DNA of 41,432 nt from Prochloraceae cyanobacterium (GTDB lineage Bacteria; Cyanobacteriota; Cyanobacteriia; Cyanobacteriales; JASJDA01). Each line of letters starts with the position of its first letter. Positions within the stretch are counted from its first letter, which is position 1. Below the pieces are notes generated by a model. It had not been told where the DNA came from. It did no database searches and saw only the letters and a list, made by a program, of their open reading frames with translations. A program made the position numbers and the translations under genes. Of the stretch, positions 6,945-35,918 are shown one piece after another. The stretch spans positions 1-41,432 of the forward strand of contig JASJDA010000049.1 in NCBI GenBank assembly GCA_030065755.1. Reading direction: 5' to 3'.

Positions 6945-9900
6945 TCACAGAAACCCTTTACTAATTAGGTAAGAAAAGTAGGTGTCTAGGAGATTCTTGA
7001 TAGAGGGACAAACAAGATCAGTGGCAGCTAGATAATTTAGGGTGTGCTGGCAGTCAAATTTGGGTCTTTGTCCGAGAGTTTCAAACAAAGTCACTCCTTC
7101 AAATATTTGCTCAAAAAAGAGGGGTAATAGTGGATACAAAGGATTTGAATCAGAAGAGAAAGAAAGATTTACTAGCTCCTGTTGCCATTGTTTGTAGGAA
7201 ATCCGCTCAAGGGGGTAGCCATAGGCACAAATCCATTCCGCCATCTGATTCAAGGACACTATTTGGGAATTAACCAAGTGAAAGACTTGCCCTAAGGATT
7301 TTGATTGCTGTGAAAGATAAAAAATGGATTGAGCTACATAATCGACAGGCACCATTTCCACCCAACCGTCTACAAAAGGTATTTTTCCAAGTTGAATTGT
7401 TCCTCGGAGAATGCGACATATAGCATCATCTGTATTCCATTCTCCTGTGTTACTGTGTCCGGTTATGGCACCTGGTCGGTAGATGCAAACGGGAAGACCT
7501 CGCTCACGTGCGATCGCCACTAACTTTTCCGCTACCCATTTGCTCTGAGCGTATCCTCCATAAACCGTTTCACCAGGAGGCAACTGGTCTGTTTCTTTTA
7601 CCACTTCGACATTCGCGTAGTCTACTGAGTCAAAAACTGCCACCGTAGAAATAAAATGTACTGGTTTTACTTTGGTTTGAGAAGCCAATCGTAGAACTTC
7701 TTGAGTACCTAGAACATTGGCGGCTTTAAGTTTGGAGTAAGGGTAAGTAAAGTTGACAAATGCTCCATTATGATAAACTACATCAATGCGATCGCTTAAT
7801 TCTTGAAACTCTTCGGATGAAAGACCCAGAAGTGGTAATGACAAATCTCCCGGTATCGGAAAGATTCGACTACTGAAATCCTTTTCCCAAATTTGGTAGC
7901 CCTCCAGATTTTTCTGAATCTTCTGCTGAGCTGCTTCAGGATTTGGAGAACGGACTAGGCAGTAAATCTTTGCTTGAGTCTGTTGTAGGAGTTCCCGAAG
8001 TAAGAAAGCACCTAGAAATCCAGTAGCTCCAGTCAAGAAAATTGCTTCTGGTTTAATCAGTTGGGTTGATTCCCATTTTGTATCGGGAGTAATTGCTGGG
8101 TCTAAAATAGCTTCAGCATCCAAATCGATGAATGAGCTGGTAGTCTCAATAGCTTCCTCTCCCCGTTGGATAGCCTCAATGGATTGAGCTAATTCTGCCA
8201 CAGTGGAAACATTGAGTAATTCATTCAGTGGTAACTCTACTTGGAAAGCTTTCCGTACCTGAGACATTAGTTGCACTGCTAACAGAGAATTACCTCCCAG
8301 GTCAAAGAAATTGTCTTTTGTGCCTACTTGTTCCAGGCGCAGTATTTTAGCCCATAGATCGACTAATTGCTTCTCCGTATCAGTATTAGGCGGAATAAAG
8401 GGATGTTGTCCCTCAAGGCGATCTCGAAGATATCCGCTCCGCGGTGCGCGTTTCTGTGATTCAATCGCCAGGGAAATTTGCTCGACATCATATAATTGGT
8501 TAGCAATGCGATTAATTAGGATAGATTTAGACTTGATTGGAGCGATCTGTGTTGACTGATGAACTGGTAAATCTTCTTGAGAATTAGTTGGTTGTGGATT
8601 GTAAGCGATCACTTTACAAAAACTGCTGGGAATCACAAAGTTGCAGCCATCTGTCCCCGATTTCTCAAATTGCCCTACCACACTGTTGAGAAAATCTAAG
8701 AGCGGTTGATTTTTCGCAGTCGGTTTGTAAGTAATAACCACCTTACCAAGACCATCGTCAATAGCAATGGCACCCAACTTAGCCAGCATCTGATGTTCCA
8801 CACCTCTGCCTAACACTCGACAACTGAGCAAAAATGTATCTACTTCTAAGATGTCTCCCTTGAAAGCAAAAATTATCGCTCCAACTAAACCATAATCGCC
8901 AAATCGGTCTTTTACATTTACCACGAGGCAGGTGTGTTTCTCTGACTGGCATATGCTTTGGATTTGGCTTTCTGAACGACGAATAGTAGTAGCGTTAAAC
9001 TGATTCGTCCGCTCAGTGAGTTGAGAAACTCTAGAGATTTGATGGGATGCCATTTCCGTAATTTGAACCTGGAGGTTCAAACTCTTGATAAATTCCCTCA
9101 AGGTCAAAGATTGCTGACGCAATTGCTGTCGCTTGACATTTTGCTGATAATGTAATGTTCTTTGCTTGTCTTCCTTGGTGATTTTTAGACGATCAAAAGC
9201 CCAAATATGCTGTAAAAATCTGGGGATAGTATCTGCGTCTTCTGGCAGTTGCAATGTCAAAACCTCCGGATAGTTCGCTTTAACTTCAGCACATTCAACT
9301 GGGTTGTCATCAATGAAAATAAAGCTATCAAGTCCTAGTTGTAATTCTTGGGATATAGATTTCAGGTTTTCTGACTTAGATTGCCAGTTAATCCGCCAGG
9401 AAACTAAATGTTCCCGCTTGAGTAACATATCTTGACGTTGCTCGAATACTTGCAAAACATCATCTTGATTATTTTTGCTGCACAGGCATAGGAGCATACC
9501 ACTATCCTGCTGTGCAACCATAAATTTCTGAAGTGCTTGGTAGGCTGGAGTTATCGCAATTCCATTTGCTCCATCTTCGCCACAAATCCCTTGCCACAGA
9601 GTACGATCGCAGTCGAGAACTATTACTTTGTAAGGGTTTTGGCGAATGGCGTGGATTTTGCGAGCAATGGTAGTTCCCAAGGCCGTAAAGAAAAGTGGTG
9701 TGAAGGGAATGTGACCGAGTTTATCCCCGTGAGAGTCGTAGAATGTTTCAACTGGGTAGGTGGTAGCTAACTCAGTTGTAGTTACCACATACACTCCACT
9801 GACATCAGCTAATTCCACTACTAATTTTGCTTCCATTTTTTGCAGAAATGGAGCACGTTTTTCCGAAGCAATGGTGCTCGGTGAAGCTGGACACACACAA

Positions 9901-12842
9901 AGTAGGTGGGGGATGGTTGTGCGGACTGCTGCTGTCTTGAATGCTTGTATCAGTTTTTGTACATTCTGCTCTATTTGCTGGGCAAAATTAGCTGATGCAA
10001 TTCCATCTTCTTCAAACCTTACCCAATCTTCAAAGCGCACCAAGACAATATTAACGCCCTGTTTGTTTTGAGCTAGCAAGCTATCAGAAGCTAAGAGTTG
10101 TTGGAATACTTGATTATAAGGAGCAAACTCCATCTGCCAGTTTAAATCCAATTCTTGTAGCCAAAAATCTAAAGAATCTGCAACTGGTTCAGTGGTGAAA
10201 GTGGCTGTAATAGCTACCTTAGGAATTGTTACAGTCTCTAAATTCTCTTCTTTTGTCGTGGTTGGTTGAACTTTCTCTAAATTGATTTTAAATTCTAGTT
10301 CTGGAGTTAATTGGAATTGAGTTAGTTGGGTTTGTGGAGACTGAACGCACTGCTCTAGAATTAAGCAATAGGAATTAATTAGTGCTTCAATTGTATCTTC
10401 ATTGAATAAATCTGGGTTATACTCAAATATTCCTCGTAATTCTTCATCTGACTCTGATATTATTAAAAATAAATCTACATCTGTTGTTGCTCTTGTAGCT
10501 TCCCAAATCGGTATCAAGTTCAGATTAGGAGTGCAGATGCTACTAATTTGTTTTCCCAAAAAGCTAAACAAAACCTGAAATAGGCTGTGATTTTCCCGAC
10601 TGCGTTGCAGTTTCGTAGCTTCAACCACCTTCCCCAATGGTATATTTTTGTGATTGTAGGCTGTCAATATGACTTCGCGCACTCGTTGCAACAATTCTTC
10701 AAAGGAGGGATTACCTGATAAATCATTTCGCAGGAGAATTGGGTAAGCAAAAAAACCAATTAGGGATTGCAGTTGAGGGTGAAACCGTCCTGAAGTGGGA
10801 GAGCCAACAACAATGTCTGTTTGTTTGCAACACTTATGTAGTAAAATTTCTAATGCTGTTAGCAGCGTCATGAAAGGAGTCACTTCATGTTCTTCGCTCA
10901 GTTGTTTTAGATAAGACCAGACATTGGCAGGTACTTTAAAGAATTTATGTGCTCCTCGGTAACTGGGAATTACGGGTCTGGGATGGTCAAGAGGTAATTT
11001 TAGTGGTGAAACCCCATCGAGTTGCTTACTCCAGTAAGTTAATCCTGCATCAAGCATTTCTCCTTGTAGCCACTTTCGTTGCCAAACAGCAAAGTCCCCA
11101 TACTGGATATTTAATTCTGGTAGTGGAGATTCCTTACCTTGGTAAAATGCTTCATACAGCGTTGCAAGTTCTTGAATGAATAGATTGACTGATTTCCCAT
11201 CACTAATAGCGTGATGAATTCTCAGCAACAGTACATGCTCAAAATCATCAAGTTGCAGGAGTTTAAAATCAAACAAGGGCTCCCTTTCTAGATTGAAGGG
11301 TTTTTGTGCTTCTTTCTCAACAAATTCCTGGATAGCGGCAGTTTTCTCGCTCAGATTTAAGCCAAGTAAATTTAACTTATCCAAGGTGATATTAATCTGG
11401 GGTACAATAACTTGAACTAGGGAACCTTCAATTATTGTAAAATTAGTCCGCAAGGCTTCATGACGACGTATTATTTCATTGAGACTGCTTTGTAATATCC
11501 CCATGTTCAATTCACCCTTTAACCAAATTGCTTGAGTGATGTTATGAACTGCACCATTGGGAATGAACTGAGCTGCAGCCCAGAGACGTTCTTGTTCGAA
11601 GGATAACGGTAAATTTTCATCTCGTGAGATAGGTACTAGGGCTATGAAATTACTGTTTATATTCTTATTGCTCTGCTTTGTGGGTTCAGATTTTACTGTT
11701 TCTAATAATAAATTTTCAGCATTTTCTAAAGATATTTCTCCTGTTCTCAGCAGAGATAATATTTCTTCGGTATTTTGACCATTATCGATTTTATTTTTAT
11801 CAATAGCTTTTTCTTCTACCACTTGAGCAGTACTTTCTAGCAATACTTTCTCTGCATTATCTAAGGAAATATCACCCGATTGTAATTTATGTAATACCTC
11901 TTCTTGGGTACTCATTTGTTCTTGATTTTTTAGCATTTTTTGTCTCACAGTCGATTGTTCGTTGTTCTTTTCTGATACTGGAGACACTTGCTTTTGAATA
12001 TTTCCTGATTCATTTGACAATATTTGACTCAAATTATGTGGCTTTTGACTAATAGTTGTTTCACTAAAAAAAATCTCAATTTTATTTGCGACTTCTGGTT
12101 GATGAAAGGTTATTTCATGCATATCTAGTTCTTGATTGACAACTTCTGGTAATTTTTCTCTAATTACCGAAGTTAAATGTTTTTTTAAAGTTACTAGAGA
12201 TAATCTAGGTTTTTTTGCTATTTCATTTGCCAAACTATAAGCATAGTTCAGCACATCTTTTCTTGGTACAACTGGAAAAGTAATACCGCGTTTGGCTAAT
12301 TCTTCCCCTCGATAGTTTTGGGCAGTATACATCATTTCTTGTCCTAAGACAGAACCTAATTTTGCAGGTACAACGAACGTACATCCGAATCCAGGCGTGA
12401 AACCATACTTCATAAAATTAGTTGTGTAAATACTTTCTTGACTTAACACAACTAAATCTGCATATAAACCAAACACTAAACCACCACCAATTCCATGACC
12501 TTGCATAGCTGCAATGACTGGTATTTTACAATCTAATAATATTCTGAAAAAATTAAACTCATTAAATTTAATTTCTCTTTGATGAATTTTTATTAATTCT
12601 TCCTTTGTACCTCCCGATGCAAAATAATTTCCATATCCTGTTAGAATAACTACTCTATAGTTATTGTTGTGAGCAACTTTATCAAAACATTTATATAATC
12701 CTTCAATTAGTCCAGGGGAAAAGGTATTGCGGGTTTCTTCATCTTTCATCGTAATTTGAACGACACCATTGCGCAACTCCACCAGTTGTACCACCTCGGT
12801 ATTGCTCTTTGCTGAGTTCATATTAATATTTAGGCTTGCCAT
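6945..12842 (-). CDS. ECH2 - C - FkbH - PCP - thioester reductase megasynthase
   Basis: 1965 aa. (1) Residues 1-260: crotonase of ECH2 type (GHGIGGGLVFG), the decarboxylase of beta-branching cassettes. (2) 300-390: linker with two copies of a helical motif (LQSGDISLDNAEKVLLES and LRTGEISLENAENLLLET). (3) ~410-845: condensation domain with intact HHAISDG (543-549). (4) ~880-1415: FkbH-like region with HAD motif DCDRTLWQG (1077-1085), which in the family dephosphorylates and loads 1,3-bisphosphoglycerate as glyceryl thioester, plus its GNAT-like C-terminal part. (5) ~1485-1560: PCP, LGGNSL with Ser1519. (6) ~1600-1965: short-chain reductase release domain with GATGFLG (1605-1611) and YAQSK (Tyr1764, Lys1768). 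There is no adenylation domain: FkbH occupies its place. Also absent is the ER domain that follows ECH2 in CurF and JamJ. The ATG overlaps the ECH1 stop by 13 nt. Confidence 0.93.
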   Translation of the reverse strand: MASLNINMNSAKSNTEVVQLVELRNGVVQITMKDEETRNTFSPGLIEGLYKCFDKVAHNNNYRVVILTGYGNYFASGGTKEELIKIHQREIKFNEFNFFRILLDCKIPVIAAMQGHGIGGGLVFGLYADLVVLSQESIYTTNFMKYGFTPGFGCTFVVPAKLGSVLGQEMMYTAQNYRGEELAKRGITFPVVPRKDVLNYAYSLANEIAKKPRLSLVTLKKHLTSVIREKLPEVVNQELDMHEITFHQPEVANKIEIFFSETTISQKPHNLSQILSNESGNIQKQVSPVSEKNNEQSTVRQKMLKNQEQMSTQEEVLHKLQSGDISLDNAEKVLLESTAQVVEEKAIDKNKIDNGQNTEEILSLLRTGEISLENAENLLLETVKSEPTKQSNKNINSNFIALVPISRDENLPLSFEQERLWAAAQFIPNGAVHNITQAIWLKGELNMGILQSSLNEIIRRHEALRTNFTIIEGSLVQVIVPQINITLDKLNLLGLNLSEKTAAIQEFVEKEAQKPFNLEREPLFDFKLLQLDDFEHVLLLRIHHAISDGKSVNLFIQELATLYEAFYQGKESPLPELNIQYGDFAVWQRKWLQGEMLDAGLTYWSKQLDGVSPLKLPLDHPRPVIPSYRGAHKFFKVPANVWSYLKQLSEEHEVTPFMTLLTALEILLHKCCKQTDIVVGSPTSGRFHPQLQSLIGFFAYPILLRNDLSGNPSFEELLQRVREVILTAYNHKNIPLGKVVEATKLQRSRENHSLFQVLFSFLGKQISSICTPNLNLIPIWEATRATTDVDLFLIISESDEELRGIFEYNPDLFNEDTIEALINSYCLILEQCVQSPQTQLTQFQLTPELEFKINLEKVQPTTTKEENLETVTIPKVAITATFTTEPVADSLDFWLQELDLNWQMEFAPYNQVFQQLLASDSLLAQNKQGVNIVLVRFEDWVRFEEDGIASANFAQQIEQNVQKLIQAFKTAAVRTTIPHLLCVCPASPSTIASEKRAPFLQKMEAKLVVELADVSGVYVVTTTELATTYPVETFYDSHGDKLGHIPFTPLFFTALGTTIARKIHAIRQNPYKVIVLDCDRTLWQGICGEDGANGIAITPAYQALQKFMVAQQDSGMLLCLCSKNNQDDVLQVFEQRQDMLLKREHLVSWRINWQSKSENLKSISQELQLGLDSFIFIDDNPVECAEVKANYPEVLTLQLPEDADTIPRFLQHIWAFDRLKITKEDKQRTLHYQQNVKRQQLRQQSLTLREFIKSLNLQVQITEMASHQISRVSQLTERTNQFNATTIRRSESQIQSICQSEKHTCLVVNVKDRFGDYGLVGAIIFAFKGDILEVDTFLLSCRVLGRGVEHQMLAKLGAIAIDDGLGKVVITYKPTAKNQPLLDFLNSVVGQFEKSGTDGCNFVIPSSFCKVIAYNPQPTNSQEDLPVHQSTQIAPIKSKSILINRIANQLYDVEQISLAIESQKRAPRSGYLRDRLEGQHPFIPPNTDTEKQLVDLWAKILRLEQVGTKDNFFDLGGNSLLAVQLMSQVRKAFQVELPLNELLNVSTVAELAQSIEAIQRGEEAIETTSSFIDLDAEAILDPAITPDTKWESTQLIKPEAIFLTGATGFLGAFLLRELLQQTQAKIYCLVRSPNPEAAQQKIQKNLEGYQIWEKDFSSRIFPIPGDLSLPLLGLSSEEFQELSDRIDVVYHNGAFVNFTYPYSKLKAANVLGTQEVLRLASQTKVKPVHFISTVAVFDSVDYANVEVVKETDQLPPGETVYGGYAQSKWVAEKLVAIARERGLPVCIYRPGAITGHSNTGEWNTDDAICRILRGTIQLGKIPFVDGWVEMVPVDYVAQSIFYLSQQSKSLGQVFHLVNSQIVSLNQMAEWICAYGYPLERISYKQWQQELVNLSFSSDSNPLYPLLPLFFEQIFEGVTLFETLGQRPKFDCQHTLNYLAATDLVCPSIKNLLDTYFSYLISKGFL

Positions 12843-13606
12843 GGAAATACCCCCTCTTTTTTAAAGCGTTTAATTTTTTCTTGAACAGTAAGATCGGCTA
12901 ACAAACTACAAACTTTGTTGACAGCTAAATCTTGAGTTTCTTGTTGAATAATCCATAACTGATTAATATAGTTTTTTAAATCCTTTACTCCAGATGAGGG
13001 TAAATACTTTAAACGCCGAATATATTGACCAATTAACTGATTAGTATTATTGCCATATTCATCAATTAAGCCCCAGTTATAAGCCTCTGATGCTGAGATT
13101 ACTTGAGTCGTTAGTGCTAAACGGTAGGCTTTTTGAAATCCCACTCGACGAATCAAAAATGGCAATACACAAGCTGGCAATAAACCAAATAATAGTTCTG
13201 ATAAAACAAAGGTGACAGTTTCATCTGCAATAACTAAATCACTTGCTGCTACCAAACCCACTCCCCCTGCTTGTACTTTGCCTCGTACAACTGACAAAAT
13301 CACTTTGCTACTTTGGGACATTTGTTTCAGGATGTTGTAGTAACCATGAGAACTCATTTTTGGATCTACCTGCTTTCCGTCTGCTACTTCTTGAAAATCC
13401 ATTCCTGTACAAAACACATCAGGTAGTCCTTCTAGGATCACCACTTTAACTTTTTCCTCGGCTTCAGCAGCTTGCAAAGCGGACAATAATTCTTGAGTCA
13501 GCTGAGTATTGATGCTATTGTTAGCTTCGGGCCGATATATCTGAATCCTTTGTACAGCATGTTGATGATTAATTTTTAGGGTTTGATAGTCCATAGCTAT
13601 ACCCAC
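12830..13606 (-). CDS. ECH1 enoyl-CoA hydratase-like dehydratase of beta-branching
   Basis: 258 aa crotonase-fold protein, family of CurE/JamI/PksH. It has the oxyanion-hole segments FCTGMDFQEV and GKVQAGGVGLVAASD. In these pathways ECH1 removes water from the HMG-type intermediate on the acceptor ACP, giving the 3-methylglutaconyl form that ECH2 then decarboxylates. The gene is sandwiched between the HMG synthase homologue and the ECH2 domain, the usual order. The frame can start at GTG 13606, overlapping the HMGS stop by 10 nt, or at ATG 13594, two bases after it; the ATG would give MDYQTLK as N-terminus. Assignment as ECH1 rather than ECH2 rests on stand-alone form, position and the separate ECH2-like domain next door. 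Confidence 0.88.
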   Translation of the reverse strand: MGIAMDYQTLKINHQHAVQRIQIYRPEANNSINTQLTQELLSALQAAEAEEKVKVVILEGLPDVFCTGMDFQEVADGKQVDPKMSSHGYYNILKQMSQSSKVILSVVRGKVQAGGVGLVAASDLVIADETVTFVLSELLFGLLPACVLPFLIRRVGFQKAYRLALTTQVISASEAYNWGLIDEYGNNTNQLIGQYIRRLKYLPSSGVKDLKNYINQLWIIQQETQDLAVNKVCSLLADLTVQEKIKRFKKEGVFPWQA

Positions 13607-14856
13607 TCATACTCCCGATGAAATTCCTTAATGGCTTTCAACACTAATCGACCTTTGCCTTCGATATGCTTCCAAACTCTTGGGAAGATTTGATAGTCTA
13701 AAGTCACATTTCGGGTACCAAAGGCAACTGCACTACTGTTTACGAGTAATTGCTCATATTCCTCTATACTTAAGGAATGGCGCTGTGCTAACTGTGTAGA
13801 AATACCGTATTGAGCTTGAATTTCCTTTCCTTCTGGAGTAACAACCCCACTATAAAATTCTGAACAACAACCAGAACCGTAGGAAAATAGACCAATGCGT
13901 CGAGGATTGGTAAATTCCCCGTTGTCAATGGTGCTAGCTAAAGATAAAAGTACCGTTGCTCCCATAATGTTGCCTACCTGTTGGCAATAGACTAATCCAG
14001 GCATCACCCGTCTCTGAAAGTCATTTTCAATCTCAACGGGTTTAGCCCTTTTAAACTTACGCATCATCTTCCTGTGAGCGCCTTTGACCATACCGCCAAA
14101 AGGTGTATGAAAACTCAAGTAATCAAAACTGTTTTGGTAGTCCGCTCTTTCTACCCTGTCTTGATAGTGGAGGTAAGCATTTTCGCAACAATCTAAGTAA
14201 GAAAGTAATGATAAGTCTGCATCTCCTGCTTCTGAATCTGGGGTTGGTCTGCAGGTATCCATTACTTCATAGCCATAGTAACCATTGCAACCCACATCTA
14301 CTTGAAAAATGTAAGGAACATCACTTACTAGAATAGCTACGGCTCCAGCACCACTACTAGCTTCAGCAAAAGAACAATCTTTCAGGCGGGCATCTCCCCC
14401 TTCGGTAACAAAAAACCGAGATATGTCAGTTGCGATCACTAAAGCCTTGGCTCCAGGAGATGTTTGGGACAAAACAAAATTCAATGCCATTTGAAAACCC
14501 GCAGTACCAGAGTAACAAGCTTGTTTAAGTTCAAACATACGGCAATTGCGACTTAATCCTAAATAATCATGAATATAGCTGCTGATAGATTTGCCAAAAT
14601 CTATGCCGGATTCGGTACAAGTAATCACCATTTCAATGCGCTGCTTGTCCGCATCATTTAAGCTGTCAACAATCGGCTTGGCTGCATTCACTGCATAAGA
14701 AACAGGATCCTCGTAAGGCATGGCGACTGTTTTCTCTTTCATCAGTAAATTGTCGAAGCGAGTTCTTTCTAATTGACGAGCTTCTGCTAATACTTGTACA
14801 TCTAGCTTTGCTGCTCCTCCATATACATTGAGAGCTTCAATCCCAACTTGTTGCAT
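13597..14856 (-). CDS. HMG-CoA synthase homologue of the beta-branching cassette
   Basis: 419 aa, the CurD/JamH/PksG type. It condenses acetyl-donor ACP (made by the decarboxylating KS) with the beta-ketoacyl chain on the acceptor ACP to give an HMG-like branch. The catalytic triad is visible: Glu82 in CTESGID, Cys114 in KQACYSG and His250 in FHTPFGG; the last two fall at the same positions as reported for CurD. KQACYSGTAG and FSYGSGCCSEFYSG are family hallmarks. It follows the KS0 gene by 44 bp and overlaps ECH1. Because it sits in a PKS operon with KS0 and two ECH genes, a role in mevalonate synthesis is very unlikely. Confidence 0.95.
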   Translation of the reverse strand: MQQVGIEALNVYGGAAKLDVQVLAEARQLERTRFDNLLMKEKTVAMPYEDPVSYAVNAAKPIVDSLNDADKQRIEMVITCTESGIDFGKSISSYIHDYLGLSRNCRMFELKQACYSGTAGFQMALNFVLSQTSPGAKALVIATDISRFFVTEGGDARLKDCSFAEASSGAGAVAILVSDVPYIFQVDVGCNGYYGYEVMDTCRPTPDSEAGDADLSLLSYLDCCENAYLHYQDRVERADYQNSFDYLSFHTPFGGMVKGAHRKMMRKFKRAKPVEIENDFQRRVMPGLVYCQQVGNIMGATVLLSLASTIDNGEFTNPRRIGLFSYGSGCCSEFYSGVVTPEGKEIQAQYGISTQLAQRHSLSIEEYEQLLVNSSAVAFGTRNVTLDYQIFPRVWKHIEGKGRLVLKAIKEFHREYEWV

Positions 14857-14900: not shown

Positions 14901-16139
14901 CTATTTTCCAATTACTAAAGCTGTATTAATACCTCCAAAAGCAAAACTATTACTTATGGCATATTTAATATCAGCTTCTTTGGCTGTTTCTTTGACCCAA
15001 TTGAATTTGGTATCAATGGGATTAACTAAGTTATTAGTAGGATGACAAAATCCCGCCTTCATTTGCAATAAAGTAGCAATGACCTCTACCACTCCAGCAG
15101 CAGTTAAACAGTGACCTGTTAGAGACTTTGTGGCATTGACTAAACAGTGGGATAGTCCTACAGATTTCAAAGCAGCTACTTCTGTTTTGTCACCTAAAGG
15201 AGAACTAGTGCCGTGGGTATTCACATAGTCAATCTGCTCTGGCTTTAACTCTGCCATAGCTAGAGCAGCATTCATGGCTCGTTCTTCCCCTTTTTGAGAT
15301 GGCTCAGGACTGCGGTTTCCATCTAAACCTAATCCCCAGCCAATGAGTTGTCCATGAGAAACTACTCCCCTTTGTTGAGCATGCTCGGCTTTTTCGAGGA
15401 CAACAACCCCACAACTTTCTCCATAAATAAAGCCATCATGGTCTCGATCAAATGGCCGACAAGCCAGATTAGGAGTATCGGCAAAACGCTCACTACCCAT
15501 AGCTCCTAAATTTTTCAATCCTTGACACTCCCATAGAGATATATCAAACAGAGGTCCAACTGCAATACTCACATCCGCAACCCCCAATTGAATTTGACGA
15601 GCTGCATGAATTAGGGCAATAGAGCCACCAGCAGAAGCCCCAGCTACGCTATAACCTTCTCCTTGAATGTGAAAACATTGAGACAGTAAACTTACCAAAT
15701 CGGTATCCCAAAAAGTCACTCCATAAGTTGGTCTTAAAAATTCAGGCTTATCAGCATAACGTTGCCAGATTTCTTCCTGATAACGTTGTTGGAAATTTGA
15801 CCCGCCTACTACAATGCCTACACGTTCAGGGTTTACTCCCCCAGAAGAAAGTTTTGCATCTTGCCAAGCTTCAGAAACAGCAATGGTTGCGATCTGGGTA
15901 CTCCATGAAGCCGTACGAAGTAAGTTACTATATTCAGGAAATAAAGATTTAGCCTCAATATCTGGAAGTTCTGCTCCCAGAAATGGTTTAAATCCCTGAC
16001 GCCCAGGTCGTTTGAGATAACCAAAATGCGTTTTTCCTGTAAATAGAGCTTCTTGAAAAGTGGCAATATTTTGACCAATTGAAGTAACAATGCCCATACC
16101 AGTTATCTCTATTCTTACTGGATCTGGACTAGATCCCAT
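14901..16139 (-). CDS. Decarboxylating ketosynthase (KS0) with Cys-to-Ser active site
   Basis: 412 aa stand-alone KAS of the CurC/JamG/PksF type. The nucleophile position reads SVAGASAGG, aligning with the STACTSG of condensing enzymes, so the catalytic Cys is Ser169. Both histidines remain: His309 in VNTHGTSSPLGD and His343 in SLTGHCLTAAG. Such enzymes do not condense; they decarboxylate malonyl-ACP to acetyl-ACP, supplying the two-carbon unit for the HMG synthase. The ATG lies inside the last codons of the upstream PKS gene (11-nt overlap), which suggests translational coupling. The likely substrate is malonyl on the third ACP of that PKS, since no separate donor ACP gene exists. Confidence 0.93.
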   Translation of the reverse strand: MGSSPDPVRIEITGMGIVTSIGQNIATFQEALFTGKTHFGYLKRPGRQGFKPFLGAELPDIEAKSLFPEYSNLLRTASWSTQIATIAVSEAWQDAKLSSGGVNPERVGIVVGGSNFQQRYQEEIWQRYADKPEFLRPTYGVTFWDTDLVSLLSQCFHIQGEGYSVAGASAGGSIALIHAARQIQLGVADVSIAVGPLFDISLWECQGLKNLGAMGSERFADTPNLACRPFDRDHDGFIYGESCGVVVLEKAEHAQQRGVVSHGQLIGWGLGLDGNRSPEPSQKGEERAMNAALAMAELKPEQIDYVNTHGTSSPLGDKTEVAALKSVGLSHCLVNATKSLTGHCLTAAGVVEVIATLLQMKAGFCHPTNNLVNPIDTKFNWVKETAKEADIKYAISNSFAFGGINTALVIGK

Positions 16140-19100
16140 GATTTACCTCTAACTTAGCTGCAAATAAATCAGCTAGTTCTCCAATATTCTTAGCTCCAGC
16201 TAATTCAATGAGTTGAATATGTAAATCTAACTCTTCCATAACCATCATAATAATTTCTGCCCTATTCATTGAATCAATCCCTAATTGTTGTAGGCTATCA
16301 GTAGGTTTTAGAGATACTTTTGCTAATTCTGGAACTATGTCATAAGTGTATTTTTTAATAAGTTCAATGATTGGATTATTTTTTATGCTAGATTCTTGTA
16401 AATCATTTTCAGCTTTACTTTGTTGTTTGATTTCTTGAATCATTTGCTTTGCTTCTTGAATAGTTAATTCATGATTTGCAACCTTATTCAGTATGGGACG
16501 TATTTTTTGCCTTATGTCCTCTTGTGATTCTTTAAGTAAATCCAGATTTTGTGGAGATTCTTCTGGAGAATATTGATTAACTTGAGATAATTCATTTCTA
16601 TTTTTAGAATAAATTTCTTCAGTGATGTATTTAGCTAAATCCCATAAGGTAGGATAATCATATAACTTGGTAGCTTTAATATTTAAATTGTAAGTTTGAT
16701 TTATGGTGGTTATCCATTCAACTCCAACGATAGAATCTAACCCTAAATCAATAAATTTCTGGTCTTCTTCTATTTCACTAATCTCTATATACAGGGCTTC
16801 TGCTAATTGTTGTTTTAAAAGCTCCTTGACTTCTAATAAGTTTACCTGAAAGTTATTTGATAGTTGTAAACTTTCTAAAGGTTGCTGATTTTGATTGCTG
16901 ATGTCAACTTCTGTTTGGGAGGATTTTTGGTGATTAACTTGGATATTTTGACCTGGGGTGGATAGGTTTTGAGCGATATATTCTGTCAACTTTAGTAAGG
17001 TCGGGTAGTCATACAATTTAGTTGCCTTAATGTTTAAATTGTAAATTTGATTTATGGTGGTTATCCATTCGACTCCCACAATAGAATCTAACCCTAAATC
17101 AATAAACTTCTGGTCTTCTTTGATTTCACTGATGTCTGCATACAAGGCTTCTGCCAGACTTTGCTTTAGGGTTTCTTTGATTTGAGCAAAATTAACATCT
17201 AAGTTATCTAATCTTGATATATTTGGTGTTTCAGCAATATTTTCTGAATTAAGATCTAAGTTATCTAGTTTTGATACACTTGGTGTTTCCGTAATCTTTT
17301 CAGATTCAACGGCAATATTTTTTGAATTAAGATCTAAGTTATTTAGTTTTGATACACTTGGTATTTTCGTGATATTTTCAGATTCAACGGCAATCCTTTC
17401 TGATAAGGTTTTTTTTAGATAAGGTATATCTCGTAAATAAGGGGATTTTAGCCCCTGTTTAATTGAACGTGAAACCATAACTAATACACTATCTTTATAG
17501 TAACGAGGTAATGTTTTATAGTATCTTGAATGCAATTGAGAATATTTTGATAATAAACCCAATCTTTCCTCGTCCACACGAGTGTCATAATCTACAAGTC
17601 TAATAACAAAAGCACGCCGCAACTTATGTAAACCTGGTTTTAAAGGAACCGATCTGTGTAATACATACTTATTAAAAAATAATACGTCTCCAACTTTATA
17701 CTCATCTTCTTCATAGTTATCTTGAATGGTGTAATCTATTGCTTCTTGCGTGATGTTATTAAGAATAGTATTAGCATTGGCTACATATTCATTCAAATCT
17801 CCTTTTGATTCATCCCATTTGATATTATTTCTTAAATGTAAATCATTAATAGTGTAATAAAAATGACCTGGAAAAGTTTTTGTAGATACATATTGCATAC
17901 CACCTCGATATTCTTTAGTGATTTCATCTAATGGTATCCAGATTGATGCTCCAAAATCTTCTGTTTTTGTAAAAGAAAATGAGCCAACTCCAACGTGCCA
18001 TGGGAATCTACTTTGATTAGGTTCAACTGAAAAAAGAGCATTGTGCATAATCACGATCTTTTTTCCAGTGATGTAATTTAAAAAAGGTAGCTTCCCTTTT
18101 ATTAATGAAGAAACAAAATCGTACTTTACCAAATCATAAGCAGGATATGTTGTATCAATGTCGTCATTTTTCGCTAGTTTTAGTGTTACTTTTTCTTTGG
18201 AAACATTGCTTTCACTTTTAGCACTTTCTAATGTTTCTTGAATTCTTTCTATTTCAGAGAAATTAAAGAAATTTTTAATTTGACAGTATCCTTTATTTTC
18301 ATACTCTCCTTTTAATTTATCGAGTTGTTCTCTGTCGATGAGTTTGAGTTCTTTTATTTTCTCTTTGTCATTTTCTAAAACAGACATTGTCTTTTGAGAG
18401 ACAACATCTTGCTGAGCTAATTGAAGAGGTTCCGAATCCACAGATTTAAACTTCAATTGAACTAATTGTCTTTTAGGTATTTGCTTTAGTGAAGAAGCTT
18501 TGGGGACAGACACTGAATCTAGATTTGATAATGTTATTTTTGGTGCCTCTAAGTTCTGGCTGTGTTTTTTCATTGAAACAAAGTCACTAGTTGATTTTTG
18601 CACTACCTTTAACCCATTTGGTTGAGCAGAGGGACGACTTTCAAGCTTTACTGATGCTACTTTTTTTTCTAAGTTAGACACTTCGGACACCCTATTTGGG
18701 GCGGGTTGAATATCTGTTATCCAATAACGCCGTCGTTGCCAAGGATATGTTGGTAATACCACTTTATTACGGGAATAATCTCCGTCAAACCCTAACCAAT
18801 CAACTTTGACTCCCCGCACATATAATTGTCCCAAACTTTGTAGCATTTGTTGCCAGTCTTCTCGACCAGAACGCAGAGAAGGCAACCAAACTCCTACATC
18901 GTCTGGCAAACACTGCCTTCCCATCCCTAACAAAATTGGTTTGGGTCCAATTTCTAGGAAGACTTCATAACCTTCTTGGTGCAAAGTCTCCATACTTTGG
19001 GCAAACTTGACTGGTTGGCGTACATGGTTTACCCAATAGCTGGCTGTAGCAATACTCTCGTCTGCTCTGGTACCAGTTACATTTGAGATCAGTGGAATCC

Positions 19101-21492
19101 GAGGTTGACTGTAGCTTATTTGATTGGTAATTGCTTTAAAGTCCGCCAACATCGGTTCCATTAAGGGGGAATGGAATGCGTGGGATACTTCTAACTGTTT
19201 TGTCTTGATTCCAAGTGATTTTAAACTGTCCCAAAGCTTACTAATGACTTCTCCTGAACCAGAAATGACAACACTTTCGGGTCCGTTGACGGCAGCTATT
19301 GCCACTTTTTCTGCGTATGGGGCAATCAGTTGATTTACTTTCGACTCTGATGCCATTACAGCTACCATCTCCCCTCCAGAAAGTAACTGCTCCATTAAAT
19401 GTCCCCGATAGGCAATCAGTTTTAATCCATCTTCTAAACTAAATACGCCTGCTATTGTTGCTGCTACATATTCTCCGACACTATGACCCATAACCACATC
19501 TGGTTGAATTCCCCAGGATTGCCATAACGAACCCAAGGCATATTCAATGGCAAATAGTGCTGGTTGAGTATAAGCAGTTTGGTTAATGAGATAACTGTTT
19601 GTTTCTTTACTATTTTCAGGATAAAGAATGTCTAAAATCGATTTTTCTAAATAAGATTGTAGAATTTGCTCGCACTGGTCTAAGGTTCGACGGAAGACAG
19701 GTTGCGTTTCATAAAGTTGTCTTCCCATATTCACATACTGAGAACCTTGTCCAGTAAACAAGAAGGCAATCTTAGGTGATTTACTATTACTAGAAAGTTC
19801 TGCAGAAAATACACCTAATGGTTCTTCTCTGGCACTAATTTTTACTAATTTATCAGCTAATTCTTGTTTGTCAGATGTAATAATCGCTAAACGATGGTTA
19901 AAGTGCGATCGCCCCGTATTGGCAGTAAAACAAATATCTGCGATCGCTGCTGTGGAATTATCAGCTAAAAATTCTTCATAAGATTGTACTAACTCTTGCA
20001 AAGCTTTTTCACATTTAGCAGATAAAGTTAATATATGGTGCGATCGCTCGGTTACTGGATCGATGTTGACTGTTAACTGTTGACTAATAACTGAAAAAGT
20101 TGCTTCTTCTAGGATGATGTGGACGTTTGTCCCACTCATCCCAAAAGTACTTACTCCAGCTAATCTTTTTTCTTCATTAGTTTCCCAGGGAATTAATTTA
20201 GTAGGAACTTTAACAGGTAACTTTTCCCAAGGTATATAAGGATTGGGATTTTTAAAATGTAGATGAGGCGCTATTTGTTGATTTTGCAATTGTAGAATAA
20301 CTTTAATCAAAGATGCAATCCCTGCTGCTGCTTCTAAATGACCAAAATTAGTTTTAACTGAAGCGATATTTAAAGGTCGTGTTGGTAAACGTTTTTCTCC
20401 TAAAATTTTTCCTAATGCTAAAACTTCAATTGGATCCCCTAAAGATGTTCCCGTGCCGTGAGTTTCTACATATTCGATTTCATGGGGTTGTACTTTAGCA
20501 TTTTTTAAAGCCTGTCGTAATACCAATTCTTGAGCAGAGCCATTAGGTGCTGTTAAACCATTACTTTTGCCATCATGATTAACGGCAGAACCTTTAACTA
20601 AAGCTAAAATATTATCACCATCTGCCATGGCATCAGATAATCTTTTTAAGACGATAACACCGCATCCTTCTCCTCTCACATAGCCATTCGCAGACTGATC
20701 GAAAGTTTTGCATCTTCCATCAGGCGCTAAGGCTTTTAACTTGGAAAAACCAATTGTAACTTCTGGGGAAAGCATCATATTTACTCCCCCTGCTAAAGCT
20801 AACTCAGATTCTCCTCGTCGTAAACTATGACAAGCTAAATCAACTGCTAATAAAGAAGATGAGCAACTGGTATCTAAGAAGAAAGCCGGTCCTTGTAATC
20901 CTAAAGTATAACTTAATCTTCCGGCGGCTATACTTCGAGCATTGCCTAAACTACTATAAGCATCAATGGTAGTGGGCTCAATGGATGGAATAGCTAATTT
21001 AGCATAATCTTCAAAACAGATACCCATAAAAACTCCTGTTGATGTGCCTTGGAGCTGATCGGGAGCTATTCCAGCATTTTCTAATGCTTCCCAACTAACT
21101 TCTAAGAGGAATCTTTGTTGAGGATCCATACTTATAGCTTCTCTGGGAGAAATGCCAAAAAATTGCGGCTCAAATTGCTCAACATCGTCCAAAAATCCGC
21201 CATATTTACTATACATTTTTCCTGCTACATCAGGATCGGAATCATAATATTGTTCCACATCCCATCTTTGAGGAGGAATTTCTGTAATAGCATCAACTCC
21301 TTTTTTTAACAGTTGCCAAAATTCTTCGGGATTTTTAACTCCCCTCGGAAAACGACATCCCATACCAATAATGGCAATAGGTTCACTCTTTTGCCGTTCT
21401 ACTTCTTCTAATTGAGTCCGTGCTTGTTTAAGAGCTTGGAGGATCCGTTTTGAGGAAGCTAGGGATTCATTTTGTTGCTCAACTTTCTTCAT
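16129..21492 (-). CDS. PKS: KS - AT - Fe/2OG halogenase - ACP - ACP - donor ACP
   Basis: 1787 aa from ATG 21492, chosen because it starts 1 nt after the upstream stop behind AGGAA; a frame from 21552 would overlap by 59 nt. KS 36-465: Cys210 (DTSCSS), His345, His385. AT 574-870: GHSVGE with Ser671 and HAFH (771-774), i.e. malonyl-specific. No KR, DH or ER. About 1050-1320: Fe(II)/2-oxoglutarate oxygenase fold with WHVG (His1166, Gly1168), distal His1279 and Arg1292/1293/1298. Gly in place of the metal-binding Asp is the halogenase hallmark, as in CurA and JamE. ACP1 (~1440-1507, Ser1470) and ACP2 (~1557-1624, Ser1587) share GLDSIVGVEW, with the Trp typical of beta-branching acceptor ACPs. ACP3 (~1708-1780, Ser1741, GIDSMNRAEI) resembles the acetyl-donor ACPs that are separate proteins elsewhere. 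Acts on the ACP-bound chain from the FAAL protein. Confidence 0.95.
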   Translation of the reverse strand: MKKVEQQNESLASSKRILQALKQARTQLEEVERQKSEPIAIIGMGCRFPRGVKNPEEFWQLLKKGVDAITEIPPQRWDVEQYYDSDPDVAGKMYSKYGGFLDDVEQFEPQFFGISPREAISMDPQQRFLLEVSWEALENAGIAPDQLQGTSTGVFMGICFEDYAKLAIPSIEPTTIDAYSSLGNARSIAAGRLSYTLGLQGPAFFLDTSCSSSLLAVDLACHSLRRGESELALAGGVNMMLSPEVTIGFSKLKALAPDGRCKTFDQSANGYVRGEGCGVIVLKRLSDAMADGDNILALVKGSAVNHDGKSNGLTAPNGSAQELVLRQALKNAKVQPHEIEYVETHGTGTSLGDPIEVLALGKILGEKRLPTRPLNIASVKTNFGHLEAAAGIASLIKVILQLQNQQIAPHLHFKNPNPYIPWEKLPVKVPTKLIPWETNEEKRLAGVSTFGMSGTNVHIILEEATFSVISQQLTVNIDPVTERSHHILTLSAKCEKALQELVQSYEEFLADNSTAAIADICFTANTGRSHFNHRLAIITSDKQELADKLVKISAREEPLGVFSAELSSNSKSPKIAFLFTGQGSQYVNMGRQLYETQPVFRRTLDQCEQILQSYLEKSILDILYPENSKETNSYLINQTAYTQPALFAIEYALGSLWQSWGIQPDVVMGHSVGEYVAATIAGVFSLEDGLKLIAYRGHLMEQLLSGGEMVAVMASESKVNQLIAPYAEKVAIAAVNGPESVVISGSGEVISKLWDSLKSLGIKTKQLEVSHAFHSPLMEPMLADFKAITNQISYSQPRIPLISNVTGTRADESIATASYWVNHVRQPVKFAQSMETLHQEGYEVFLEIGPKPILLGMGRQCLPDDVGVWLPSLRSGREDWQQMLQSLGQLYVRGVKVDWLGFDGDYSRNKVVLPTYPWQRRRYWITDIQPAPNRVSEVSNLEKKVASVKLESRPSAQPNGLKVVQKSTSDFVSMKKHSQNLEAPKITLSNLDSVSVPKASSLKQIPKRQLVQLKFKSVDSEPLQLAQQDVVSQKTMSVLENDKEKIKELKLIDREQLDKLKGEYENKGYCQIKNFFNFSEIERIQETLESAKSESNVSKEKVTLKLAKNDDIDTTYPAYDLVKYDFVSSLIKGKLPFLNYITGKKIVIMHNALFSVEPNQSRFPWHVGVGSFSFTKTEDFGASIWIPLDEITKEYRGGMQYVSTKTFPGHFYYTINDLHLRNNIKWDESKGDLNEYVANANTILNNITQEAIDYTIQDNYEEDEYKVGDVLFFNKYVLHRSVPLKPGLHKLRRAFVIRLVDYDTRVDEERLGLLSKYSQLHSRYYKTLPRYYKDSVLVMVSRSIKQGLKSPYLRDIPYLKKTLSERIAVESENITKIPSVSKLNNLDLNSKNIAVESEKITETPSVSKLDNLDLNSENIAETPNISRLDNLDVNFAQIKETLKQSLAEALYADISEIKEDQKFIDLGLDSIVGVEWITTINQIYNLNIKATKLYDYPTLLKLTEYIAQNLSTPGQNIQVNHQKSSQTEVDISNQNQQPLESLQLSNNFQVNLLEVKELLKQQLAEALYIEISEIEEDQKFIDLGLDSIVGVEWITTINQTYNLNIKATKLYDYPTLWDLAKYITEEIYSKNRNELSQVNQYSPEESPQNLDLLKESQEDIRQKIRPILNKVANHELTIQEAKQMIQEIKQQSKAENDLQESSIKNNPIIELIKKYTYDIVPELAKVSLKPTDSLQQLGIDSMNRAEIIMMVMEELDLHIQLIELAGAKNIGELADLFAAKLEVNHGI
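16621..17175 (-). repeat. Duplicated tandem acceptor-ACP segments
   Basis: ACP1 (16972-17175) and ACP2 (16621-16824) are near copies, differing at roughly 14 of 70 residues and identical over the core around the phosphopantetheine serine. They are linked by about 50 Q/N/S-rich residues. Duplicated acceptor ACPs are known to raise flux in beta-branching modules. Confidence 0.85.
17188..17391 (-). repeat. Three in-frame ~20-30-residue linker repeats
   Basis: Between the halogenase domain and ACP1 the protein carries three degenerate copies of a segment containing PSVSKLDNLDLNSENIA, with spacers such as VESEKITET (residues about 1368-1435). The DNA repeats as well (for example GATCTAAGTTAT plus TTTGATACACTTGGT on the plus strand). 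It looks like a flexible, slippage-prone linker rather than a fold. Confidence 0.7.
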
Positions 21493-21493
21493 G

Positions 21494-24400
21494 TTAATTT
21501 CCTGCCAATAAGTTTTCCAGTGCCAATAATTCTTCAGTAATGGATGTCTCAATTTGAGTTTCCAGAGGTTGTTCCAACTCTAATGCAGTATTCTTTGCCA
21601 CCTCCTGCTCAGAAGGTGAAGTTTTTAAATACTCCTCTTTTGTTTGCTTTTTACTAGCCAAGTATTGAGCCAAGGATTCTATAGTGGGAAAATTCCAGAG
21701 AATAGTTGCCTCCAAGGAAGTTTCTAGCCAATCTTCTAGGGCTTGTACTAACTCCACTGCCAAAACCGAATCCATGCCATAATCGGCAAAAGATGTTTGA
21801 CAAGCAATAGCGGAAGCCTCAATCCCTGGTTGTTTGGCTAACCATTTTTCTATCCAACTTCCAATCTCATCAGAACTATACACGCCATGATTTTCTAAAG
21901 GCTGAGAATCTTTATGTTCTATAACAACATCAGTTGTATCCTGGTAGTGATTCAACTCTACATCTGAATTTTTCTTTGATTTTACTGTAGGTGTTTGACG
22001 CAGAAATTCATCCAGTTCATGGTCTTCCCCAGCCAGGTTTTGTTCTAGATCGCCAATTTTTCCTGCGTAATTCCTTATTCGAGCAGTAATATCCTCAGCT
22101 TCAGATCCCACCATTTCTCCTGGTGTTCCCATTAGCACGAGCTGTATTTTTTGTTCAAGCTGCAATTCAACCCAAGTTGCAGTATTCTGCAAAGGTTCAG
22201 AGCTTAACTGCTTCAAATTTCGTTTCACGGCTGCTAATAGAATAGCCCAAGTTGCTAGTTCACCTGTACGAACATAAGTCCATCCTAAAGCGGTATGATT
22301 TTTCGAAAATCGGCTCTTATTTGTCAAGCGAACGCTGATTTCTTCTGTAGCATTTTTCAGACGTTCGGTCACTTCTGGAACTCCCAATGTCTCAGATAAG
22401 AATTGGGAAAGTTCTTCTCCTTTCTGAATCACACGAGAACCCAAAAACATACTGAGCGTTTCAGTGGGACCTTCAAAAATGCGAAGCAGTCTAGCATCAC
22501 GTAAAATTTGAGGAGCTATATTAGTCTCAATATAACCACGACCTCCCAGTAACTGAACCAAATGGTCTGCTGCTTGCCAGAAAAACTCAGGACCAAATAT
22601 CTTACAAGCAGTATAAATTTCTTCGGGAACCGAAATTCCCCGATCTAGGAATTGAGCAATAGTAAATACCAAAGTTTCCAAAGCCGTAATTGCTGAGGTT
22701 AGATCCCTTAAACGAACTAAAGTAACTGGGTTATCAAGTAAGCGACCAGTAGAAACATTACGACGCTCACTATAACGAAGCATCAACTGAGCACAGCGTT
22801 TCATTCCTCCCAGACTGATTACAGCTAGTCCCAAGCGACCAGACATCATAGCATCTTGGGCAACTTCCAGACCATTTCCCATTTCTCCTAGTAAATACTC
22901 TGAACTAACTGGAACATCGTCAAAGTAGATACTATTCTGAACCATGCCCCGCATCCCCATTGTCATTGCTTCAGGACCTTGGCGAAAACCCTTTGTTCCC
23001 TGACGCACAACAAAACCACTAATCCCTATGGGTTGATGATTAGCATCCAACATTTGAACGAAAACATTAGTTAAACTAGCCCATGAACCTGTACCAATCC
23101 ATATTTTTTGCCCTCTAAGTCGCCAAACCCCACTATTATCAGGATATGCAGTAGTTCCAATAGCTCTTGGGTTCGATCCTGCACCTGGTTCTGTAATAGC
23201 AAAAGCAGCTAACTCACGACCCTGAGCAATCAATGGTAAGAGTTCATCTCTGACAGAATCCTTGGCATACTTCATAATTGGACGAGTTCCCAGGATATGA
23301 TGAACACCTACAAAAGCAGCTAGGGTTAAATCAATCGCTCCTAACTGTTCAAATACCCGAAAAGTATCATAATAATTTAAACTTATCCCACCATATTGTT
23401 TTGGTACTTGCAAACCTAAAAGCCCACGGTTTCCAAAATCGAGAACAATATGAGGTGGAATGCAACGTCTTTCATCAATTAAGCGCGAGTTAATGCGTTC
23501 TGAGGCATAGTCACGCAACCATTTAAGCAGTTCATCAGCACGGGATTGGCTGGCTGCATCTTGGGTCGTTAATGGCTTGTTTCCATTTTTTTGAGTTGCC
23601 ATAAAGCTATTAGTTTTTTCAGTCAGATATTCATCTGGTTGCTGCTTAATATTTATTGGTTCCACTAACTCTTTTGCTGTCCACTCACCCACCAATTTTA
23701 GTTTTTTATCTAGCCAGTCCTGGCGACAAGCATGACGCTGAATTTTACCACTGGAAGTCTTAGGGATACTGGAAGTCTTAAGTAGTAATACTTCATAAAC
23801 CTTCAACTCATGCTCCATCCAGATGCCGTGACGAACGGCAGAGACAACCTCATTAACGTTCAGCTTTCGTAGGTAAGTTCGTTCCACTTCACAAGCTACC
23901 ACCAGACGCTCCTCTCCTTCGATTTCTGCAGAAAATGCAGCAAGACAATTACTTCGGAGAGCCCGATGACTGTTTTCAACAGTTAATTCAATGTCTTGGG
24001 GATAATAATTACGACCTCTAATGATAATTACGTCTTTTAGTCGCCCCGTAACAAACAATTCTCCATCTCTTAAAAAACCCAAATCTCCCGTACGTAAAAA
24101 AGGTCCTTCTCCTGTATCAGTAAGATAAGCTTGAAACGTTTCTTGTGTTGCTTCGGGATGATTCCAATACCCTAAAGTTACACTTGGACCGCTAACCCAA
24201 ATCTCTCCCACTTGGTTATCACAACAAGCGATACAGGAAAAAGGTTCTACTATAATCACTTTGAGATCCAAACAAGTTTGACCGCTACTCACTAAAATGC
24301 TTAAATCTGGGTCTTCTTTAGCTTTTACAACTGCTCGATTTTTTTCCAGTGCTATCTTAGAGACATTGCCAAAAATAGGCAATGCTCCTTTTCGACTCCC

Positions 24401-25429
24401 TGTTACGGCCACAGTAGACTCAGCAAGTCCATAGCAGGGTGCAAATGATTCTGCTTGGAAACCACACTCAGAAAATTTCTTTTGAAACTGCTCTAGAGTT
24501 TCCCATCTGAGCGGTTCGGCTCCATTAAAAGCCACCTTCCAACTACTCAGGTTAAGCCTTTCAACCTCTGAGACTGAGACTTTTTGAACGCATAAATCGT
24601 AGGCAAAATTTGGTCCGCCACTAGTATGAGCTTGGTAGCGAGAAATAGCTTGAAGCCAGCGGATGGGACGTTGCAAGAAAGCTACAGGGGACATAATGAT
24701 AGACTTGCTGCCAATAAACAGAGCTTGAATTGCATTTCCCAATCCCATGTCATGGTAAAGAGGTAGCCAGCTCACGTAAGTCGTTTCTTGAGAATGTTTG
24801 CTCAAGCTTTGGATCACTTGTTGATTGTGCAATAAATTTCCATGACTTACCATCACACCTTTTGGTGTTCCTGTCGAACCAGAAGTGTACTGCAGGAATG
24901 CTAATGTGTCGCCGTTCAATTTGGGCTCTTGCCACAAGGATGACTTTTCTATCGGAATAATATCTGTAGCTATATAATATAGACCAATTAATTCCCCGTT
25001 TTCGGCTAATCTTTCCTCTATATTCTTCGAAAGTGATTTAGTAGTCAGTACAACTTGAGCTTGGGCATCTTTCAAAATTGCCTCTAGCCGAGACATATTC
25101 TGATTCCGTCTTGGTGGATAAGCGGGAACCGCAACAACCCCTGCATATAAACAGCCAAAGAAAGCTTCAATAAAATCTAGACCCGATGGATACAACATCA
25201 AGGCTCTATCTCCAGGTTGACAAAAAGCTTGCAGGTAAGCTGCGATCACTCGTGCGCGTTGGTCTAACTGTTGATAAGTAAGATTAACTTCTTGAGTTTC
25301 GCCATCTTGCAGAAAAGTATAAGCAATCTGATGGGCTTGAGCCCGTGCTCTTTTTTTTAAAATATCAACTAAATTAAGAAAATTATTTGAACTAAAATCT
25401 AAACCCTTTTTATCTAAAGATAATGTCAT
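21494..25429 (-). CDS. FAAL - acyl-CoA dehydrogenase - ACP starter enzyme
   Basis: 1311 aa, first gene of the operon. Residues 1-590: fatty acyl-AMP ligase with TSGSTGTPKG (182-191), the YGLAESTVAV segment (334-343) and RTGDLGF; it adenylates a free fatty acid and passes it to an ACP, not CoA. Residues ~630-1115: acyl-CoA dehydrogenase fold with FAITEPGAGSNP, the GRLGLAVISLGGM helix and IFEGPTET, whose Glu986 is at the usual catalytic-base position. It would introduce a 2,3-double bond into the ACP-bound acyl chain using FAD. Residues ~1185-1260: ACP, YGMDSVLAVEL with Ser1221. The last ~40 residues (ETQIETSITEELLALENLLAG) are acidic and helical, like a C-terminal docking segment. Chain length is not readable. 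The PKS start follows the stop by 1 nt. Confidence 0.93.
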   Translation of the reverse strand: MTLSLDKKGLDFSSNNFLNLVDILKKRARAQAHQIAYTFLQDGETQEVNLTYQQLDQRARVIAAYLQAFCQPGDRALMLYPSGLDFIEAFFGCLYAGVVAVPAYPPRRNQNMSRLEAILKDAQAQVVLTTKSLSKNIEERLAENGELIGLYYIATDIIPIEKSSLWQEPKLNGDTLAFLQYTSGSTGTPKGVMVSHGNLLHNQQVIQSLSKHSQETTYVSWLPLYHDMGLGNAIQALFIGSKSIIMSPVAFLQRPIRWLQAISRYQAHTSGGPNFAYDLCVQKVSVSEVERLNLSSWKVAFNGAEPLRWETLEQFQKKFSECGFQAESFAPCYGLAESTVAVTGSRKGALPIFGNVSKIALEKNRAVVKAKEDPDLSILVSSGQTCLDLKVIIVEPFSCIACCDNQVGEIWVSGPSVTLGYWNHPEATQETFQAYLTDTGEGPFLRTGDLGFLRDGELFVTGRLKDVIIIRGRNYYPQDIELTVENSHRALRSNCLAAFSAEIEGEERLVVACEVERTYLRKLNVNEVVSAVRHGIWMEHELKVYEVLLLKTSSIPKTSSGKIQRHACRQDWLDKKLKLVGEWTAKELVEPINIKQQPDEYLTEKTNSFMATQKNGNKPLTTQDAASQSRADELLKWLRDYASERINSRLIDERRCIPPHIVLDFGNRGLLGLQVPKQYGGISLNYYDTFRVFEQLGAIDLTLAAFVGVHHILGTRPIMKYAKDSVRDELLPLIAQGRELAAFAITEPGAGSNPRAIGTTAYPDNSGVWRLRGQKIWIGTGSWASLTNVFVQMLDANHQPIGISGFVVRQGTKGFRQGPEAMTMGMRGMVQNSIYFDDVPVSSEYLLGEMGNGLEVAQDAMMSGRLGLAVISLGGMKRCAQLMLRYSERRNVSTGRLLDNPVTLVRLRDLTSAITALETLVFTIAQFLDRGISVPEEIYTACKIFGPEFFWQAADHLVQLLGGRGYIETNIAPQILRDARLLRIFEGPTETLSMFLGSRVIQKGEELSQFLSETLGVPEVTERLKNATEEISVRLTNKSRFSKNHTALGWTYVRTGELATWAILLAAVKRNLKQLSSEPLQNTATWVELQLEQKIQLVLMGTPGEMVGSEAEDITARIRNYAGKIGDLEQNLAGEDHELDEFLRQTPTVKSKKNSDVELNHYQDTTDVVIEHKDSQPLENHGVYSSDEIGSWIEKWLAKQPGIEASAIACQTSFADYGMDSVLAVELVQALEDWLETSLEATILWNFPTIESLAQYLASKKQTKEEYLKTSPSEQEVAKNTALELEQPLETQIETSITEELLALENLLAGN

Positions 25430-27570: not shown

Positions 27571-27596
27571 GTAGCTAGAAAAGAATCGAATATAGT

Positions 27597-35894: not shown

Positions 35895-35918
35895 ACCAAA
35901 ACAGTTAGAGGAGTACTA

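Follow-up and report, generated by a model that had tools for sequence, protein, structure and literature searches.

Among described systems, the closest counterpart of the halogenase considered here is that of CurA from the curacin A pathway (PDB 3NNF, 3NNJ, 3NNL and 3NNM). The two share an HxG motif, a position between an AT domain and ACPs, and an associated β-branching cassette. Chlorination at the HMG branch carbon in the CurA system is summarised in the available text of two accounts (PMC3252866; PMC8407142). The jamaicamide pathway (JamE and JamF through JamJ), together with a genomic locus retrieved in this study (L060), offers a second parallel through its KS-AT-Hal-ACP module and fatty-acyl starter; the halogenase (Hal) of L060 is 78% identical to ours. 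Two further systems resemble other parts of the locus. For vioprolide, which involves a FAAL, an ester-forming C domain and FkbH, a fatty acyl group is proposed, in the available part of the source, to be esterified to FkbH-loaded glycerate (PMC8949500). Vioprolide then continues as a peptide, whereas the line described below places a reductase directly next and would act on a chlorinated, β-branched chain. Nostochlorosides are cyanobacterial chlorinated glycolipids whose ngl cluster includes a FAAL and a glycosyltransferase (PMC10849952), but the accessible sections of that report describe a CylC-type halogenase and an ether linkage, and mention no HMG cassette or FkbH module.

The stretch of DNA analysed here, hereafter called the window, is a 41,432-nucleotide contig from a Prochloraceae cyanobacterium. 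Its halogenase feature lies on the minus strand, and the displayed plus-strand frame is full of stops. The encoding PKS gene is a single minus-strand open reading frame (16129-21552, counted from a TTG codon), although translation more likely begins at an ATG (21490-21492) that adjoins the stop codon of the gene upstream. In this protein Pfam recognises, besides a KS and an AT, three carrier proteins and a PhyH-like stretch. The KS (20098-21387) carries its active-site Cys, and the AT (18793-19782) has GHSVG and HAFH motifs, which we take to be of the malonyl type. The PhyH-like stretch is a full-length match to the CurA halogenase (phmmer; 3nnf, 3nnj, 3nnl and 3nnm; E = 1.7e-168), with 246 of 319 residues (77%) identical over the whole domain. 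A further PDB match, the 'biotin halogenase' BtnX (E = 2.6e-27), likewise reads WHVG.

This Fe(II)/2-oxoglutarate (2OG) domain spans 17386-18342 on the minus strand (319 amino acids, PKS residues 1071-1389 from the TTG). The first-pass annotation had located the feature, at 17530-18345, but its domain was slightly too short, since an end at 17530 leaves out some 48 residues of the C terminus. The H-V-G motif at 17989-17997 supplies the metal ligand His1186 (codon 17995-17997) and Gly1188 (17989-17991), which replaces the Asp/Glu ligand, and alignment places the distal metal ligand at His1299 (17656-17658). Counted from the ATG, these residues are His1166, Gly1168 and His1279. Arg1312 and Arg1318 (17599-17619) align with CurA Arg241 and Arg247, which we take to be the numbers of the 2OG/active-site arginines. 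The identity to CurA, the retained ligands and the location within a PKS all agree with the original proposal of an HxG halogenase of the CurA/JamE type, and the domain map bears out its placement between the AT and the ACPs. Judged by its sequence, the domain is almost certainly a mononuclear Fe(II)/2-oxoglutarate halogenase of this type, a kind already known.

The carrier proteins depart from those of the described systems. Acceptor ACP1 (16918-17157, minus strand) and acceptor ACP2 (16603-16842, minus strand) have an LGLDSIVGVEW segment in common, and the best match of ACP2 is a CurA ACP (2liu, 122 bits). The third ACP (16132-16407, minus strand) has CurB chains as its sole PDB matches (E = 1.3e-29) and scores above the cut-off of the NCBIfam ACP model NF005502. 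When the domains of the window were mapped on six fetched loci, five of them distinct because L006 and L062 overlap, a CurB-like ACP was found as a separate short ORF in four of the five (L060, L062/L006, L003 and L004), the frame being ambiguous in L005. The array therefore reads as two acceptor ACPs followed by a CurB-like donor ACP fused to the PKS, unlike curacin, where CurB is a separate protein, and unlike L060, which has three acceptor ACPs and a separate donor. The view that three tandem ACPs are present as in CurA/JamE does not survive this result; the claimed equality of order applies to KS-AT-Hal and the acceptor ACPs that follow, but not to the third ACP.

When 84,980 genomes were scanned with a pattern, five CurA-type loci emerged, with Hal domains 76 to 83% identical to that of the window. 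Within the order, 5 of 388 genomes, the window's own included, encode Hal at 76 to 100% identity; such domains occur in 2 of 61 genomes in the family to which the Okeania genome belongs and are absent from the single other genome of the window's genus. L004 is curacin-like, given the 99% identity between its ECH2 and CurF. Gene order suggests that L060 and L062, which are 89% alike, are jamaicamide-like. In Okeania hirsuta (L003, 9947-11443) the halogenase lies outside the PKS: Hal and an ACP form an ORF of their own, located between HMGS and ECH1. The closest relative of the Hal domain (83%) occurs in a Calothrix MAG (L002, 9647-9892); there, KS-AT and Hal-ACP are separate same-frame ORFs divided by stops, and the contig ends after Hal. 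A thioester reductase from a Calothrix MAG (L029) belongs to another pathway, presumably one resembling that of heterocyst glycolipids.

A complete HMG (HCS) cassette with intact motifs, comprising the donor ACP, a Cys-less KS, HMGS, ECH1 and ECH2, is encoded on the minus strand. After the PKS, the latter four follow in this order, and several of the genes overlap briefly. The decarboxylating KS of the CurC/JamG type (14901-16139) scores above the cut-off of NF005490 and reads GASAGGS, its Cys being replaced, whereas the HMG-ACP synthase (HMGS; 13597-14856) has its Cys. The ECH1 dehydratase (12830-13606) scores above the cut-off of NCBIfam NF005498 and is 75 to 82% identical to the ECH1 proteins of relatives. 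Since a CurA/JamE-type halogenase adjoins this complete cassette, one would expect, by analogy, that the HMG branch carbon becomes chlorinated.

Which alkene would carry the chlorine depends on the ECH2 decarboxylase domain (12057-12842, minus strand). This domain keeps the catalytic His but, unlike CurF, lacks the catalytic Tyr82 and Lys86, with Glu and Ile at these columns. We take Tyr82 and Lys86 to be CurF residue numbers; the former agrees with the Tyr-to-Phe change seen in 2q35. Its identity is 57 to 61% to other cyanobacterial ECH2 domains and 55% to PksI, and several active-site segments (GIGGG, TPG.G..F.VP) match PksI, not the other cyanobacterial sequences. According to the available portion of one study, PksI employs a His-only mechanism and CurF requires the Lys (PMC7501309). 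The segments matching PksI, an α,β-type decarboxylase, make it quite conceivable that ECH2 yields an α,β-enoyl product, and hence a chloromethyl branch (an allylic chloride) in place of a vinyl chloride. However, the Lys-Phe loop is also common to the jamaicamide-like L060, and because the domain is 55 to 61% identical to all seven compared sequences, neither side is favoured by identity.

What follows ECH2 in the same protein departs from curacin and jamaicamide. Neither Pfam nor comparison with relatives reveals an ER domain after ECH2. Pfam places a zinc-type ER-like domain in the ECH2-KS interval of L004, L006 and L060, all three of the loci to which it was applied, and L005 has sequence similar to ER between ECH2 and KS; L003, like the window, lacks an ER in this interval. 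The window nevertheless keeps a linker (11643-12056, minus strand) with two copies of a repeat that relatives carry near the ER-KS junction. Where CurF continues with an ER and a PKS module, and L060 with ER-KS, the protein encoded here has neither and ends in C-FkbH-PCP-TR, followed by a glycosyltransferase. The likeness to the CurA/JamE pathways does not extend downstream of ECH2.

The motifs of this terminal line, all on the minus strand, are intact. The condensation (C) domain (10263-11642) has an HHxxxDG motif (HHAISDG). The FkbH domain (glyceryl transferase/phosphatase; 8658-9632) scores above cut-off (TIGR01686, 318.9 bits) and carries the DxDxT motif (DCDRT), with the carrier protein (PCP; 8163-8387, identified by domain search and motif) adjoining, as in a glyceryl-loading module. 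The thioester reductase (TR) release domain (6948-8057) also scores above cut-off (TIGR01746, 375.6 bits), and its best PDB match is MxaA (4u7w). From these sequence features we consider it very probable that the halogenase is part of a chlorinating β-branching cassette that feeds a C-FkbH-PCP-TR line.

The product of this line is probably an acyl-glyceryl compound, and a chlorinated acyl-glycerol is our reasoned prediction from the domains. It is unlikely that the line makes something else, such as an amide formed with a different acceptor or, should the C domain be silent, a hydroxyacyl aldehyde. No A domain is present, and the C-domain type is not proven by a tree: among 19 C domains, those adjacent to FkbH do not all fall in one clade. 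However, the catalytic motifs of C and FkbH are intact, and FkbH is the only loading domain in the protein.

The arrangement C-FkbH-PCP-TR also occurs outside the window. Homologs of FkbH (E ≤ 1e-40) are present in 47 of the order's 388 genomes, the window's own included. In 29 non-window FkbH loci, each with flanks of 1.5 kb, FkbH is preceded by a C domain and followed by a TR once, in L084 (L112 in its enlarged form). In four genomes with a CurA-type Hal, all other than that of L004, a C-FkbH-PCP-TR query matched no full unit. A search of 72,556 plasmid records yielded no place covering 80% of the whole ECH2-C-FkbH-PCP-TR protein and one single-piece match, which runs from C to TR and lies on a megaplasmid of Niallia taxi (L121, 8807-19710). 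The order there is FAAL-PCP, AT, KS-PCP-C-FkbH-PCP-TR, which may represent an acyl-glycerol line in Bacillota. A looser version of C-FkbH-PCP-TR is found on a Rhodococcus plasmid. Among CC-licensed PMC articles we found no description of the ECH2-C-FkbH-PCP-TR protein or its predicted product, which is weak evidence of absence.

The loss of ER bears on the fate of the chlorine. In curacin biosynthesis chlorination is cryptic, the chlorine being lost on cyclopropane formation, and the Hal, ECH1 and HMGS of the window belong to the same family as those of the curacin-like L004. A cryptic role here is nonetheless very improbable, as the ECH2 protein is devoid of ER and its ECH2 domain lacks the CurF Tyr82/Lys86 pair; with no ER in that protein, a curacin-type cyclopropane is not expected.

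The assignment as a halogenase rests on the alignment of the metal ligands. Twenty aligned relatives were obtained from 23 loci tried (three gave no alignment, and some rows are repeats of one gene). At the column of the WHVG Gly, 10 of the 20 have Gly and 10 have Asp; both His ligands and the first Arg are kept in all 20, and the second Arg in 19. The Gly is found in the window and all close relatives, whereas distant cyanobacterial relatives are HxD proteins with Asp at this position. The HVG motif is therefore not a chance occurrence because its Gly occupies the metal-ligand column, and the earlier statement that this Gly replaces the HxD carboxylate, with the distal His retained, holds. 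In comparisons with four relatives, the Hal domain gives dN of 0.08 to 0.14 and dS of 0.55 to 1.65 (dN/dS about 0.08-0.15); dS exceeds 1, near saturation, for three of the four, but the direction is still clear and shows that purifying selection acts on the domain. An AlphaFold2 model of the domain (six rows) had a mean pLDDT of 32.2, too low for use, and the solved CurA structure, at 77% identity, takes its place. That the domain is a hydroxylase or dead relative, as its HxD kin in distant cyanobacteria might suggest, is extremely improbable given the Gly in the ligand column, the conservation of every remaining ligand, the 77% identity to a characterised halogenase and a dN far below dS.

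A pathway can be proposed from the domain order; the domains, motifs and order are observed, and each reaction below is our reading of them. The starter protein (21494-25429, minus strand) consists of a FAAL, an acyl-CoA-dehydrogenase-like domain and an ACP. FAAL would activate a fatty acid onto its own ACP, and the dehydrogenase domain would form an α,β-alkene. The KS-AT would then add one malonate, giving a β-ketoacyl-ACP without ketoreduction. Decarboxylation by the Cys-less KS would leave an acetyl group on the fused donor ACP, and HMGS would add this acetyl to the β-ketoacyl chain. Hal would place chlorine on the branch carbon of the HMG-like intermediate while the two acceptor ACPs carry it. 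ECH1 would dehydrate the chlorinated intermediate, and ECH2 would decarboxylate it to a chlorovinylidene (vinyl chloride) or chloromethyl-enoyl (allylic chloride) branch. FkbH would load a glyceryl unit on the PCP, the C domain would pass the chain to the hydroxyl of glyceryl-PCP to form an ester, and the reductase would release an acyl-glyceraldehyde or acyl-glycerol.

Either released form may be glycosylated by the product of the adjoining glycosyltransferase gene (P0007; 5722-6840, minus strand). Assignment of this protein to the MGDG-synthase/diglucosyl-diacylglycerol-synthase family is weak: PF06925 (MGDG synthase) gives 29.5 bits, just above the cut-off of 25, and NF010135 (diglucosyl-diacylglycerol synthase) gives 71.9 bits, far below the cut-off of 500. 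Of the 388 genomes of the order, 20 encode homologs (E ≤ 1e-20), the window's own among them. A TR of at least 48% identity directly precedes the glycosyltransferase in 2 of 19 non-window loci (L100 and L105), and an ACP-TR terminus followed by a P0007 homolog is found in L113 and L114. Four of five enlarged glycosyltransferase regions contain KS-AT domains, and thus the P0007 family often lies within PKS clusters. Glycosylation of the acyl-glyceryl product is, in our estimate, a tentative proposal at best. A GPH-type transporter (4377-5666, minus strand; below the NCBIfam cut-off) is a possible exporter. In L113 (475-17643), an ORF below cut-off that is AurF-like, and presumably resembles the CylC halogenase family, is followed by two PKSs, the second ending in TR, and a P0007-like glycosyltransferase. 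This candidate halogenated glycolipid cluster may parallel that of the nostochlorosides, as far as the accessible sections describe it (PMC10849952).

The halogenase is thus of a known kind, and the β-branching assembly line around it is a new combination of parts. The locus adds to the small number of CurA-type halogenase loci one whose pathway ends in another way, and offers a test case for cassette rewiring in which the donor ACP is fused, the ER is lost but its linker kept, and ECH2 is joined to an NRPS-like ester-forming and reductive release line. It is conceivable, though somewhat less likely than not, that these genes form an assembly line producing a chlorinated, β-branched glycerolipid or glycoglycerolipid whose glycerol derives from the FkbH glyceryl unit and reductive release, not from glycerol-3-phosphate, and that C-FkbH-PCP-TR is a portable lipid-to-glycerol release module present in cyanobacteria and on a Bacillota megaplasmid. 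If true, this would be a glycerolipid route outside the usual glycerol-3-phosphate pathway.

Several other genes lie in the window. Divergent to the FAAL gene, on the plus strand (26371-28331), are genes for a DUF3419 protein and a methyltransferase, which resemble the BtaA/BtaB betaine-lipid pair. The pair was considered as a head-group source and set aside: it is kept in all six loci with a homolog of at least 50% identity, and none of these six regions (8.5 to 19 kb) matches any searched PKS/NRPS domain, so linkage to the cluster is not supported. A V/A-type ATPase subunit A is encoded at 472-2289 on the plus strand (NF003220, above cut-off); the F-type ATPase is usual in cyanobacteria. At 34452-38541, also on the plus strand, genes for a KamA-like radical SAM protein, an EamA transporter and an ATP-grasp protein stand in a row, possibly forming another small-molecule cluster.
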